Positions 14,655-19,151 of a DNA stretch of 21,415 nt are shown one piece after another; the stretch's first letter is position 1, and every line of letters starts with the position of its first letter. The position numbers were made by a program, and so were the translations under genes. The notes under the pieces were generated by a model. It ran no database searches. It was not told where the DNA came from and saw nothing but the letters and a program-made list of their open reading frames with translations. This DNA comes from a virus: the IMG/VR virus record IMGVR_UViG_3300033571_010015, positions 1-21,415 of that record. One strand, given 5' to 3'.

Positions 14655-15289
14655 CCTCCGTAAACGAGCTGGTCCCACTTTCCGGGTTTTGACGTGAGCC
14701 ATTCAAGTGTCACTCGATACGTCCCGCCCTCCTGCAACGCAGTTGCTCCAGTCAGCAAAAAATTCACCTGGCTGCTAAAGCTAAACGGGTTGCCTTGGAC
14801 ATCGTTGAACGCGCGCCCGACGCCAACCAAGGATGGCGGCACCGTGTAAACCTTTTGGTGCTTCAAAACAATTCTGGGCGAGAGGTAGTCCGTTTCTCCT
14901 CTGCTAAACCTTGCGTAAAGGTTTTGGACTACGGAGTTTGATGATTTTTTTGGGTCCACCGCATCCTCTCGGCCTTGCTTCCATTTCATCCAGTTTGCCA
15001 TTTCGGCAGCGCTCATCCCATCCCGGAAGTAAGGGTTGGTCTCAAGCGGTTCGCTTACCGTTGAGATGTCGAGGCTCCAAATGTCTGGATATTGAGTTGC
15101 GCCACCGCCGGGTTCGGGGATTTGTTCCGTGACGGTTTCCACCAACGTGTAAACGCCGTCCTCCCGAGTGAGAGTCCAGCTTGTGACGTTGTTGTTGGGC
15201 TCCATTTCGGAAAAGTCCCTAAAGACGCTCGTCTGGTATTTGTTTCCACGAGCGTCTTTGCCTGTTTCGATTTTTGTCAGAGTCTTCAT
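14651..15289 (-). CDS. Hypothetical tail protein, 212 aa
   Basis: This gene follows the tape measure gene with an ATGA overlap, the usual place for distal tail or baseplate hub proteins. The product begins MKTLTKIETGKDARGNKYQT, then alternating beta strands (TSWTLTREDGVYTLVETVTE), a helical segment (RDGMSAAEMANWMKWKQGRE) and a C-terminal YRVTLEWLTSKPGKWDQLVY. No catalytic motif is visible. Position suggests a minor or distal tail protein, but I cannot match it to a named family. Confidence 0.65.
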   Translation of the reverse strand: MKTLTKIETGKDARGNKYQTSVFRDFSEMEPNNNVTSWTLTREDGVYTLVETVTEQIPEPGGGATQYPDIWSLDISTVSEPLETNPYFRDGMSAAEMANWMKWKQGREDAVDPKKSSNSVVQNLYARFSRGETDYLSPRIVLKHQKVYTVPPSLVGVGRAFNDVQGNPFSFSSQVNFLLTGATALQEGGTYRVTLEWLTSKPGKWDQLVYGG

Positions 15290-16791
15290 TGGTAAACGGT
15301 TCCCATGCTTGAGGATGTGGCTGGTTGCAGCTTTCCAATTTTGTCCAGCATTTTGGCAGTGTTGTCCGCGGTTTTTTGCTGCGCGATAAGCTGTTGCCGA
15401 GCCAGATCCACGCCAGCGTTTTGCGGGCCTCCAACGTCGCCTCCTATTTTCGCCATGCTGGAAACGATGGAGCCAATCGGTTTTTCCTCAATTTTCGGGA
15501 TAAAGGCTGCCCCCGGTGGCGGCGGCGCTGGCGTTGCGTATTTTTCACGCGCTGCGGCTGCGGTTTTCTGCGTGCTTTCTGCAATTTTTGCTTGGTCCCG
15601 CTCAATCTCCGCCACCGTTTGCGTGGTGTCAAAAAGCGGAGCGGGCACCTTAAACTTTGCCATCTCAAAATCTTTTTTGAGTTTGGCTGTATCAATCAAC
15701 TCGCCCTTTGCCCGGACTTCCCCCTCTGCTTTTTTGGCTGCGGCTTCCGGGTTTTGCGCGGTGAAAAGTGCTTTCGTCTTTGCCGCCGTCGTTGCAAACA
15801 AAACCGCCATCTCGGTGGCAAGGAAATTTATTGCGTTTGCAAAAGCCAGCTTTAGTCCGGTGTAGGATTGCGCCCAAACCGTTTGCAGCGAGTCACTGAG
15901 CGAGTTTATCGCATCCATGAAAGCGAGCTTAAGCGTGTTGTAAACCAACTTTCCTTCAGTGCCAAAATTTTTGAAATAGTTGATCCAGAATGAAATTGCA
16001 TCGCCAAACGCTTTCCCGATGCCAGTCAAGTCGATGGAGTTGAGGCTGTCCACCACCTGAATAATCTGCGGCACCACCGCGGCAGCCATACCGACAAAAA
16101 GCCCCTGCATTTTGCTGCCAGCGGTCCCGAGCACGTCCGTCGCGCGGTCGAACAAGCCAGCGTTTTCCGCCATCAACGCAGCTTGGTTGCCAAGGTTTTC
16201 CTGCACGTCCTCCAGCCCGCCCGCAGAGAAAACCGACAGCAGCTTTGCGCCGCTTTTTCCGAAAACCTCCATGGACATTGCAGCACGCTGCGCCGGGTTC
16301 TGGATTTTGGAAATCGCCTCTCCAACCGCGGATAGTTGCTGGTCGGCAGAAAGCCCTTGGATGTCCTTAATGGAAATGCCCAGCGTTTTAAATTTTGCAA
16401 TGGCGGCGTCGTTGCCGGTGGCAGCCTCGGTGATGCTTTTTTGCAACTTCGCAACCACCGGTTGAACATCGCTGGCGCTCATGCCGGCTTGGTCGAACGC
16501 CGTTTGCAGCACCATGAGTTTGTCCACGGCAATACCAGTTTGCCCCGACAAATCCACCAGCGCGCCGCCGGCTTCCATCGCACTGTAAAAGCCACGAGCT
16601 GCCGCGGCGAGTGTTGCCATGATGCCGACGCCCCCCAGGAGCTTCTGGAACCCGCCAGCAAGCCCGTCAAACATGCCCGGTGCTGTAGCCGCTTGAATGC
16701 CCCTGCCCAGCCCGCGCATCGCGTTGTCTGCGCGTTGCACGCCAGAAACAAAGCCACTGGTATCTGCGGTGATTGCGATGGTGTTTGCCAT
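15286..16791 (-). CDS. Tail tape measure protein, 501 aa
   Basis: The product begins MANTIAITADTSGFVSGVQRA, the usual N-terminus of TMP/TP901-type proteins (ADTSGF...ADNAM). A small, Gly/Ala-rich region with GVGIMATLAAAARGFYSAME follows, then QTGIAVDKLMVLQTAFDQAG and an APAQ-rich helical body containing MSMEVFGKSGAKLL, a signature of many tape measure proteins. A hydrophobic stretch is near LFVGMAAAVVPQIIQ. At 501 residues it is short, consistent with a tail of roughly 75 nm if the usual 0.15 nm per residue holds. It is one of the few starts here with a strong Shine-Dalgarno, GGGAGG placed 5 bases before the ATG at 16791. Gene order after the chaperone frameshift gene is as expected. Confidence 0.85.
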   Translation of the reverse strand: MANTIAITADTSGFVSGVQRADNAMRGLGRGIQAATAPGMFDGLAGGFQKLLGGVGIMATLAAAARGFYSAMEAGGALVDLSGQTGIAVDKLMVLQTAFDQAGMSASDVQPVVAKLQKSITEAATGNDAAIAKFKTLGISIKDIQGLSADQQLSAVGEAISKIQNPAQRAAMSMEVFGKSGAKLLSVFSAGGLEDVQENLGNQAALMAENAGLFDRATDVLGTAGSKMQGLFVGMAAAVVPQIIQVVDSLNSIDLTGIGKAFGDAISFWINYFKNFGTEGKLVYNTLKLAFMDAINSLSDSLQTVWAQSYTGLKLAFANAINFLATEMAVLFATTAAKTKALFTAQNPEAAAKKAEGEVRAKGELIDTAKLKKDFEMAKFKVPAPLFDTTQTVAEIERDQAKIAESTQKTAAAAREKYATPAPPPPGAAFIPKIEEKPIGSIVSSMAKIGGDVGGPQNAGVDLARQQLIAQQKTADNTAKMLDKIGKLQPATSSSMGTVYQ

Positions 16792-16793
16792 AA

Positions 16794-17546
16794 TTACCTC
16801 CCAAAAACGTCTTCCCGGCGAAGCACGCCACGCGCGATCGCCTGCACAAGTTGCCTGCGGATGCTTTCCGCCTGCCTGCCGTAGGCTGAATCGAGCGCCC
16901 GCTGAATGTGCGCACTGTCTGTGTGTCGGTTCGGGTTTTTTGCCTTAAATTCAACCACGTTGCCGCGCATCGAAAACGATACGGATCCCGTGTTGCGTCC
17001 CTGCCAACGCGTAATCCAGTCCGGCACCGTGATTCCCAAAGCGAGCGCTGCGCGGCACCACCCGGCTGCCGTTGCTCCAATCGTGCGCTCAAGCATGGCA
17101 ATCACGGCCTTGCGCTTTTCGACCGTGGAAAAATGCCGCGGTGCTGCGTCAGGGTAGTGCTTATCTGGTTTCTGGTTTTGCTTGATGAACTGCACCAGCG
17201 TTGCCGGCGGCACCGCCAGTTCGGCTGCCAGTTCCTGCAACGCCGCTCGGCGTGCCTCTCGGCGGACGGTTTGAAGGGAACGCTGCACGGTTGCTTCGTT
17301 TCGGATTACAAGCGCGCGTTGCACGGTAGATTTGATCGCCTTGCGGGATGCGGAGAATCCTTTTGCGAAGGACCTGCCGGCCATAGGCGGCGTGAGCTTA
17401 AACGCGTGTTTGATTACGCCCTTGGCCTCGCGCCGGACCACTTGCTCCACGGTGAGTCGAGAAACTTGAACCTGCCGCGCTAGGTATCTGGCAAACCTGT
17501 CCGCAAAGTAACCGCCGTTGGTGGTGACGCGGATGCTACTCATCAT
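16794..17546 (-). CDS. Basic hypothetical protein between chaperone and tape measure, 250 aa
   Basis: The start at 17546 is chosen over 17624; it lies 11 bases before the end of the frameshift extension of the chaperone. The product begins MMSSIRVTTNGGYFADRFAR, is strongly basic and largely helical, with TVQRALVIRNEATVQRSLQT in the middle and a compact C-terminal part containing DSAHIQRALDSAYGRQAE. It has the look of a minor tail or tail-completion protein, but no family is recognised. Genes between the chaperone pair and the tape measure are uncommon in lambda-like order, which makes this one noteworthy. Confidence 0.65.
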   Translation of the reverse strand: MMSSIRVTTNGGYFADRFARYLARQVQVSRLTVEQVVRREAKGVIKHAFKLTPPMAGRSFAKGFSASRKAIKSTVQRALVIRNEATVQRSLQTVRREARRAALQELAAELAVPPATLVQFIKQNQKPDKHYPDAAPRHFSTVEKRKAVIAMLERTIGATAAGWCRAALALGITVPDWITRWQGRNTGSVSFSMRGNVVEFKAKNPNRHTDSAHIQRALDSAYGRQAESIRRQLVQAIARGVLRREDVFGR

Positions 17547-17757
17547 CTTCGTCCTCCACCTGTTGTTGCACCGGAAAAAGAATTTCCATCGGCGCCTTGT
17601 TGCGTCGCACTGTCCACGCTCCATTCGCCCACAACGCGGCGTGGTAAATCCGCAGCAGCATTGCCAGCGGCGCCCGGCGAAATATGAAGTCGAAGGTCCA
17701 TCCGGTTTCGCGCGCCAGAACTAGGACGAGTGCTTCCGTCCAGTCTGGCGCAGTGAG
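17536..17757 (-). CDS. Frameshift extension of the tail assembly chaperone (T-like domain)
   Basis: This frame has no start codon at its beginning, so it is only reached by a -1 slip at 17763-17757. It encodes 73 residues from LTAPDWTEALVLVLARETGW to QQQVEDEDDE, ending in TAG at 17536-17538, and is clearly coding-like: helical, with hydrophobic positions and aromatic Trp residues. Joined to the first 115 residues of the 126-aa product it gives a fusion of about 188 aa, analogous to lambda GT. In phage lambda the T part binds the tape measure complex and recruits the tail tube protein. The unshifted frame ends 20 residues later within the stem-loop. Confidence 0.85.
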   Translation of the reverse strand, partial: LTAPDWTEALVLVLARETGWTFDFIFRRAPLAMLLRIYHAALWANGAWTVRRNKAPMEILFPVQQQVEDEDDE

Positions 17758-17763
17758 TTTTTT
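17712..17763 (-). promoter_or_regulatory. Programmed -1 ribosomal frameshift signal (A AAA AAC + stem-loop)
   Basis: On the minus strand the heptamer A AAA AAC (17763-17757) is in the correct phase: its first A is the third base of Pro113. Five bases later an 8-bp perfect stem begins (17744-17751 paired with 17712-17719). Inside its loop is a second 5-bp stem (17737-17741 with 17724-17728) and an 8-base loop. The zero-frame TAG lies within the structure. Slip site, spacer and stem together are the textbook layout for -1 frameshifting. Confidence 0.88.
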
Positions 17764-18101
17764 GGTGAATCCTCCCGTGTGCTCCCGGGTTGCTGCAACA
17801 CCTCAACCTGCCCGGCCTCAACGGCAGCAGATTGCCCCCGGCACCAATCGGCGACTGGCTTTGCCAGCGCCAAAGGAAACCATCGCGAAAAGTTTTTGAT
17901 TTCCTGCAAAGCCACCCCATCAGAAATCGCCTGTTCAACGTCCTCCGGGTCGCGGCTTTGAATCCAAGCGCAAGCCACCACCTGTTCCTGTTCGCTCATC
18001 TCTGCAATGGCAAGGTCAGCAATCGCTTTTTGTGTGGTCAGCGTCCAAGGCCTGAGTTCCAGCGGCCCCACTTGCGTGTTTTTGAGGAAAAACGGGTTCA
18101 T
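17721..18101 (-). CDS. Tail assembly chaperone, unshifted product (G-like), 126 aa
   Basis: The ATG at 18101 overlaps the preceding stop as ATGA; the longer in-frame start at 18254 lies within that gene. The product begins MNPFFLKNTQVGPLELRPWT and is helical, with TTQKAIADLAIAEMSEQEQV and EQAISDGVALQEIKNFSRW. This fits the G-type tail assembly chaperones that coat the tape measure protein before tube polymerisation. After Pro113 the frame carries the slip site, then reads a short alternative tail to TAG at 17721. It lies between tail tube candidates and the tape measure gene, the standard place. Confidence 0.8.
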   Translation of the reverse strand: MNPFFLKNTQVGPLELRPWTLTTQKAIADLAIAEMSEQEQVVACAWIQSRDPEDVEQAISDGVALQEIKNFSRWFPLALAKPVADWCRGQSAAVEAGQVEVLQQPGSTREDSPKNSLRQTGRKHSS

Positions 18102-18523
18102 GCGAAACGCGCTTGGAATTCCTGTTTTAGCCATTCTGGCGAGTCGGGGTAAACGATGCCAAACGCTTGCCCGTCCCTGCGGGAGATCCCCACGGCGGCA
18201 GATTTGGCAAACCGTTTGAGGTCGCGCGCGTTGTCCCGGTAGCCGCGCATCCACGAGATGTCGGAATCAGGGTTCGCCTTGCACCATTCCAAATCTTCAA
18301 AACGCTTGCGAAATTCGTCGAAGTCGATTTCCGCGCCGTCCACCTTGGCAAGCACGTCGCAATTCACCACCCACCGGACGTGAGTTTTTCCAGCCTCGTC
18401 CACAAAGTGTTGAAAGCCGCCACGGCGAACCAAAGCACCGCCGCTAGTAAGCCAAGCGGCGATGATGTCAGTGTTGAAACTCTTGCCCGGAGATTCGTTG
18501 TCCTCAAGTAATCGGAGGCGCAT
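18098..18523 (-). CDS. Hypothetical tail protein, 141 aa
   Basis: The product begins MRLRLLEDNESPGKSFNTDI and has mixed structure: a beta region (RWVVNCDVLAKVDGAEIDFD) and a helical C-terminus (DARDLKRFAK-type segment and EWLKQEFQARFA). It sits between the tandem tail tube candidates and the chaperone gene, with a 12-base gap in front and a 4-base ATGA overlap after. No domain is recognised. A minor tail or tail-completion role is inferred from position. Confidence 0.6.
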   Translation of the reverse strand: MRLRLLEDNESPGKSFNTDIIAAWLTSGGALVRRGGFQHFVDEAGKTHVRWVVNCDVLAKVDGAEIDFDEFRKRFEDLEWCKANPDSDISWMRGYRDNARDLKRFAKSAAVGISRRDGQAFGIVYPDSPEWLKQEFQARFA

Positions 18524-18535
18524 AGATTTTTTGGG

Positions 18536-18850
18536 TTAGGTTGCGTTGGGGTAAAAAGTTGCAGTGGCAGACCAGCCGCGGAAATCATCGTTTTTTGAAT
18601 CTCGTGTGACGTTGGTCCAGATTCCTTTTCCCGTTACCGAAGTGATGCCGCTGGCAGCGTCACCAGCGTCATAAGGGGCAGTGTCGCCTTTTCCTTTCAC
18701 GCTCACCGTATAGCTGCGGTCGTAGGTTTTAGCCTCAGAATACAATCCAGCGGAGGTCAAAATCTGTTTGAATTCGCCTTTCATTTCAATGTCCAGCGAC
18801 TCAACAATTGTGCCGGTCGCGGTAACCATAGTGATGCCAAAGGTAGCCAT
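18536..18850 (-). CDS. Small tail protein paralogue B (tail tube candidate), 104 aa
   Basis: The ATG at 18850 follows the preceding stop with only one base between; a longer in-frame start at 19027 would overlap the previous gene. The product begins MATFGITMVTATGTIVESLD and has ...TVSVKGKGD, then TNVTRDSKNDDFRGWSATAT near the end. It aligns with the 99-aa protein encoded directly before it (TFG..., ES...E, KTKG/KGKG, NDDF, ATYT/ATAT), so the pair is a tandem duplication. No other candidate for the tail tube protein lies between the tail terminator and chaperone genes. Confidence 0.6.
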   Translation of the reverse strand: MATFGITMVTATGTIVESLDIEMKGEFKQILTSAGLYSEAKTYDRSYTVSVKGKGDTAPYDAGDAASGITSVTGKGIWTNVTRDSKNDDFRGWSATATFYPNAT

Positions 18851-18851
18851 A

Positions 18852-19151
18852 TTAAGCAAATAGGGTGTAGGTTGCTTCCGCGGTTGAGAAGTCGTCGTTG
18901 GTCTGTGAAACTTTTGACGATGTAAGTTTTGCGCCGGTGAACGCGCCTTCCGGCACCGTTTCAAGGTCGGCTTCCCCCTTCGTCTTGACCGTGGTAGTAG
19001 TGGTGCTGCGCGGCTTGCGCTGCACAATTACGGTTTGCCCATCGGCGTCGCGAATTGTGGAAAGCTCCACAACTTCTTCTTGCGTCGATTCCTGCAAATA
19101 ACCGCTCGGCGCAGTTACTCCAAATAATGTTGCTCCAAATGTTACGGGCAT
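18852..19151 (-). CDS. Small tail protein paralogue A (tail tube candidate), 99 aa
   Basis: The product begins MPVTFGATLFGVTAPSGYLQ and carries ADGQTVIVQRKPRSTTTT, then VKTKGEADLETVP and SQTNDDFSTAEATYTLFA. It is mostly beta-strand, small and rich in Thr, consistent with a tail tube or tail decoration subunit. It is followed directly by its paralogue (18536-18850). The lambda-like tube protein is usually larger, so this may instead be a tube variant or an associated protein. No Shine-Dalgarno is seen in front of its ATG. Confidence 0.6.
   Translation of the reverse strand: MPVTFGATLFGVTAPSGYLQESTQEEVVELSTIRDADGQTVIVQRKPRSTTTTTVKTKGEADLETVPEGAFTGAKLTSSKVSQTNDDFSTAEATYTLFA

Follow-up and report, generated by a model that had tools for sequence, protein, structure and literature searches.

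A probable programmed -1 frameshift in a tail-chaperone-like gene of uncultured phages

Does a small gene near the tape measure gene of the virus record IMGVR_UViG_3300033571_010015 (IMG/VR) encode one protein or two? The gene lies on the minus strand of the window, by which we mean the whole stretch of 21,415 nucleotides that was analysed, and a first-pass annotation had proposed that it is a tail-chaperone-like gene with a lambda-type frameshift. A comparison of 67 sequences supports this proposal, and a programmed -1 ribosomal frameshift very probably yields two tail-assembly chaperones from the one gene. The features concerned are the following:

17721 to 18101, minus strand: zero-frame gene for a predicted G-like tail assembly chaperone of 126 aa, with ATG at 18101 and stop TAG at 17723-17721
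17770-17775, minus strand: Shine-Dalgarno (SD)-like GGAGGA, tentatively a 5′ stimulator; best anti-SD pairing -10.3 kcal/mol
17763-17757, minus strand: slippery heptamer A_AAA_AAC, in codons CCA AAA AAC (Pro113-Lys114-Asn115)
17756-17752, minus strand: 5-nt spacer TCACT, the first three bases of which are TCA, where 51 of 67 sequences have a stop
17712 to 17751, minus strand: putative downstream stimulatory hairpin, identified by minimum free energy (MFE), covariation and suppressed synonymous change
17536 to 17763, minus strand: -1 frame from the slip site, predicted T-like extension of 73 residues after Asn115, with stop TAG
16794 to 17549, minus strand: next gene, 251 aa, without a family match, its ATGATG overlapping the end of the extension
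15286 to 16791, minus strand: tape measure protein, 501 aa, matching PHROG tape-measure families (e.g. phrog_8462, E 1.8e-16)

The slip site and hairpin within the window

The heptamer stands in the 126-codon ORF in the phase required for a tandem -1 slip, and the first-pass annotation had placed it correctly at Pro113, although without stating that the codons are read on the minus strand. Past the shift the translation begins LTAPDWTEALVLVLARETGW..., extends over 73 residues and closes with an acidic tail, EDEDDE, before the stop. Since an internal ATG of this extension is codon 33, a start-based gene caller would recover a 41-residue fragment at best, in agreement with the earlier claim that such calling misses the 73-codon frame. 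No ATG, GTG or TTG was found in the window's -1 frame ahead of the conserved part of the extension. The SD-like GGAGGA lies 6 nt before the heptamer. It is kept in nearly all close relatives, others of which have GGAGG about 14 nt upstream of the heptamer, and is weak or absent in distant families; it resembles the 5′ stimulator of dnaX, but its conservation is confined to the close relatives.

Downstream of the spacer, a perfect 8-bp lower stem is formed by GCGCCAGA (17751-17744) with TCTGGCGC (17719-17712), and a nested upper stem of 5 bp by GGACG (17741-17737) with CGTCC (17728-17724), directly after which comes the zero-frame TAG. The stem lengths agree with the first-pass annotation, which had read the structure as a two-tier stem-loop and offered its nested layout as an observation of its own. 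Both stems exist; however, energy folding merges them into one 16-bp helix with two bulges in the window, and close relatives have a single 17-18-bp helix with one bulge, so that the structure is better described as one bulged helix of 16-18 bp. The two-tier look is particular to the window and its nearest relatives, in which the upper stem is one base out of register, and the layout does not stand out as a distinctive feature: relatives have one bulged helix, usually with the stop right after the heptamer.

The segment 17756-17711 (46 nt) has an MFE of -26.3 kcal/mol (z -5.4), compared to -12.3 +/- 2.6 for shuffled sequences. None of 200 dinucleotide shuffles reached this value, and among about 7,100 windows of 46 nt on the minus strand just 6 were at least as stable. 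Among 19 in-phase X_XXY_YYZ heptamers within the genes tested, the one at 17763-17757 was alone in being followed by a strong hairpin, the others having -15.5 kcal/mol or weaker. AAAAAAC itself occurs ten times in the window. A second in-phase A_AAA_AAC, at 16941-16935 on the minus strand within the 251-aa gene, opens a -1 frame that continues for some 50 codons, into the tape measure gene; it has no strong hairpin, and was rejected as a second site, not being conserved in 12 relatives. Separately, a very stable hairpin lies at 20146-20090 on the minus strand, right after the stop of the major capsid gene, with 46-nt windows down to -32.9 kcal/mol; this is probably a terminator or processing site.

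Comparison with 66 other slip regions

Searches with the fusion protein, with a profile and with an extension-only profile returned 26, 47 and 78 viral contigs, respectively, in overlapping sets, these contigs being metagenomic fragments. We compared 67 distinct slip regions, the window and 66 others. In the species genomes of GTDB we found no convincing relative, the sole match, in Ruegeria, being discarded as it covers 15 residues. Relatives are 46-81% identical over residues 1-115 of the zero-frame protein. X_XXA_AAC is present at the homologous place in all 67 regions, as A_AAA_AAC in 41, G_GGA_AAC in 15 and C_CCA_AAC in 11; the letters of the motif thus vary while its pattern and phase are constant. 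The A-site codon is AAC in every case and never AAG. In Escherichia coli A_AAA_AAC slips less than A_AAA_AAG (PMC5009743), and the constant AAC may stem from the Lys and Asn tRNAs of the hosts.

This distribution bears on the idea that the polymerase, not the ribosome, slips on the A6 run, so that mRNA with one base fewer or two more would encode the fusion. Such a run is present in the window and 40 other sequences, and some dnaX genes in which the poly-A run is long are believed to make use of polymerase slippage (PMC3711429). Six is, however, a short run, and the 26 sequences with G_GGA_AAC or C_CCA_AAC have runs of three A, which suits tandem tRNA slippage instead; moreover, a hairpin spacing of about 5 nt from the heptamer is kept in most sequences. 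We consider transcriptional slippage very improbable.

The hairpin is conserved alongside the slip motif. In the 67-sequence alignment 92% of lower-stem cells can pair, compared to 14-38% when the partners are slid by one to three columns. Cells changed on both sides numbered 26, versus 7.6 in shuffles, and the covariation score was 0.179 versus 0.087, with none of 500 shuffles as high; these shuffle tests are inflated by sequence kinship, so that the slid control and the synonymous test described below weigh more. One pair, 31-58, has changed from G-C to A-U via a synonymous Leu change (CTG to TTG). The region downstream of the heptamer folds with z <= -2 in 66 of the 67 sequences. In the close set, four-fold sites in the codons of the lower stem have a mean entropy of 0.13 bits, compared to 1.41 elsewhere; when four other sites were drawn at random 100,000 times, no draw gave a value as low. 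Thus the comparison that had been proposed as a check, of the slip run and of paired bases in related phages, found both to be conserved and compensatory changes to be present among the 67 sequences.

The slip motif and its phase, the spacer, the hairpin and the extension all persist down to about 33-50% identity of the extension, which in 35 distant loci stays open for some 74-83 codons from the slip site and, across 21 aligned sequences, contains an invariant NGAWT motif. That a heptamer and a stem should have met by chance, at a gene 3′ end that had decayed or been mis-sequenced, is hardly credible: the repeated occurrence of AAAAAAC in the window, including the in-phase copy at 16941 with its open -1 frame, speaks for such an accident, but conservation in 67 sequences, covariation and an intact extension contradict it. 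Nor did we see what would be expected of independent genes, namely homologues with a disrupted slip site and a separate start codon for the extension. The extension could still be made separately, by reinitiation once the zero frame has terminated, in the manner of ordinary overlapping genes, and the zero-frame stops near its beginning would suit this, as would the annotation of the corresponding extension in phage Moulinsart as an ORF of its own with an internal start. However, the -1 frame has no start before the conserved part of the extension in the window, and in the 35 distant loci listed it has no ATG, GTG or TTG ahead of the slip; reinitiation also leaves the invariant in-phase X_XXA_AAC and the paired hairpin unexplained, and we regard it as highly improbable.

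Under the programmed ribosomal frameshift that we favour, most ribosomes would finish in the zero frame, giving the G-like protein of 126 residues. A smaller share, probably a few percent, would slip by -1 with the Lys and Asn tRNAs on A_AAA_AAC and continue into a 188-residue G-T fusion, the ribosome being held by the hairpin 5 nt downstream and perhaps by the upstream SD-like element. By analogy with lambda, G would coat the tape measure protein, while tail-tube subunits would be recruited by the T part of the fusion; if the roles are lambda-like, the ratio of G to G-T would matter for tail assembly. Reporter frameshift rates of 6% and 7% have been reported for two chaperone genes of an HK97-like cluster (PMC3711429), and the molar ratio in lambda is about 30:1 (PMC5009743).

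The zero-frame stop next to the heptamer

In 51 of the 67 sequences a zero-frame stop directly follows the heptamer (TAA in 30, TAG in 12 and TGA in 9). TCA takes the place of this abutting stop in the window and its nearest relatives; in the window the zero frame ends 11 codons (33 nt) further on. A quick tree with long branches gave 7 changes between stop and sense codon and 12 inferred switches between TAA, TAG and TGA. The Leu codon of the -1 frame that creates the stop is CTA in 42 of the 67 sequences, compared to about 5-7% of CTN codons elsewhere. Given this frequency, the switches of stop type and the enrichment of CTA, set against the TCA of the window, the abutting stop seems to be preferred without being obligatory.

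Whether a stop abutting X_XXA_AAC is a selected part of the mechanism in this phage group is a stronger claim, which we consider possible but doubtful, 16 of the 67 sequences, the window included, being without one. If it were true, the slip site would mark the precise end of the short chaperone, and competition between release factor and slippage would set how much fusion is made relative to the short protein. With the HIV-1 slip site in a bacterial system, changing the next codon to a stop lowered shifting and extra RF2 abolished it, and two viruses have a stop codon immediately past the heptamer (PMC4373837). In some bacteria dnaX likewise has its zero-frame stop immediately past the shift site (PMC5009743). 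Heptamer-to-stop distances in other tail chaperone genes are longer than the 0 nt usual in this family: 15 nt in lambda, 15 nt in N15 (from annotation) and 18 nt in P2, against 33 nt in the window. Mean distances in the PRFect study were 26 nt for the SEA-PHAGES set and 36 nt for the Xu set (PMC10885494). A simple motif scan did not recover the slip sites of HK97 and phiC31. The stop-abutted slip sites of the family offer a natural set in which to study how termination competes with slippage in bacteria.

Gene neighbourhood, known chaperone systems and phage Moulinsart

Gene order at the locus is G, T, one gene and the tape measure gene, all on the same strand. A -1 shift near the 3′ end of a gene that precedes the tape measure gene is likewise the arrangement of lambda G/GT, and HK97 gp13/gp14, N15 gp14/15 and P2 E/E′ share the layout upstream of the tape measure gene, with other slip sites. 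A position between tail-tube genes and tape measure gene is thus evident on the tape-measure side and only partly shown on the upstream side, where HMM searches of the window did not identify a tail-tube gene. Two adjacent small ORFs of about 100 aa each, at 18536-19151 on the minus strand and without family matches, lie where the tail-tube genes would be expected. Further upstream, 19538-19158 gave a weak tail-completion/terminator match, to PF11367 at E 0.0019, which does not reach the family's cut-off, and to phrog_176 at E 0.15. A gene of 141 aa without an assigned family (18098-18523, minus strand) separates the chaperone gene from the presumed tail-tube genes, and its stop overlaps the chaperone ATG at 18101; in phiC31 a gene (gp40) is similarly placed, after the one for the major tail protein and before the frameshifted one.

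Scans of both halves against Pfam, PHROG and NCBIfam, alone and across alignments, gave no family match. In particular, the families of lambda G (PF06894, TIGR01674) and lambda T (PF06223, TIGR01715) matched neither the fusion nor the extension above curated cut-offs, while lambda G and T, run as positive controls with the same tools, matched their own families. Alignment to lambda G and T by hhalign was not significant, with probabilities of 2.9% and 1.2%. Just past the slip the extension resembles lambda T (LARETG / LAREMG), and we treat this LARE.G match as a lead only. The structures of the two halves of the fusion were predicted apart; the model of the zero-frame protein is mostly helical, at moderate confidence (mean pLDDT 78), and searches with this G model using Foldseek and VIA-align gave no significant solved structure and listed no known chaperone. 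Because neither half matches the lambda G/T HMMs while the lambda controls do, the pair is best viewed, as judged from sequence, as a chaperone family without a name that uses a known mechanism and lies outside the lambda G/T sequence families. We infer the chaperone function from gene position and the frameshift, not from homology.

The signals also differ from those of known systems. The lambda slip site is G_GGA_AAG with AAG in the A site, whereas the window has AAC and a strong hairpin 5 nt downstream. An A-rich heptamer with an upstream SD-like element and a downstream stem-loop as stimulators is also found in dnaX, in unrelated genes and hosts (PMC5009743). If our reading is correct, the known lambda-type frameshifts would be joined by a tail-chaperone pair without a named family, from uncultured phages that are linked to Verrucomicrobiota phages.

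These links come from two proteins. The capsid protein of the window shares 52% identity with its counterpart in Verrucomicrobia phage P8625, and the extension has a relative in the Akkermansia gut phage Moulinsart (41% over 51 residues, E 5e-4); on this evidence the window phage likely has a host in Verrucomicrobiota. In P8625, no equivalent slip site was found in the region past the tail gene P8625_16. In Moulinsart, WAK79076.1 ends ...APSKN, and the gene has A_AAA_AAC followed by TAG (ON453896.1, 11081-11090) and a hairpin after the slip of -32.4 kcal/mol (z -4.4). The Moulinsart G part was not retrieved when the window's G served as query in a simple protein search. Two further ORFs precede the tape measure gene in Moulinsart, as compared to one gene in the window. 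Nine IMG/VR loci carry close copies, in which heptamer and stop are the same.

The annotation of Moulinsart treats the pair as two hypothetical proteins that have nothing to do with each other, and since the extension (WAK79077.1) was called from an internal start, it misses the predicted fusion. Annotations of this kind would need correction, both where start-based callers miss the extension and where, as in Moulinsart, the pair has been split into two ORFs. The prophages induced in the OMM12 consortium include Moulinsart, whose listed host is A. muciniphila (PMC10197239); as it can be induced there, the frameshift prediction is directly testable in this phage.
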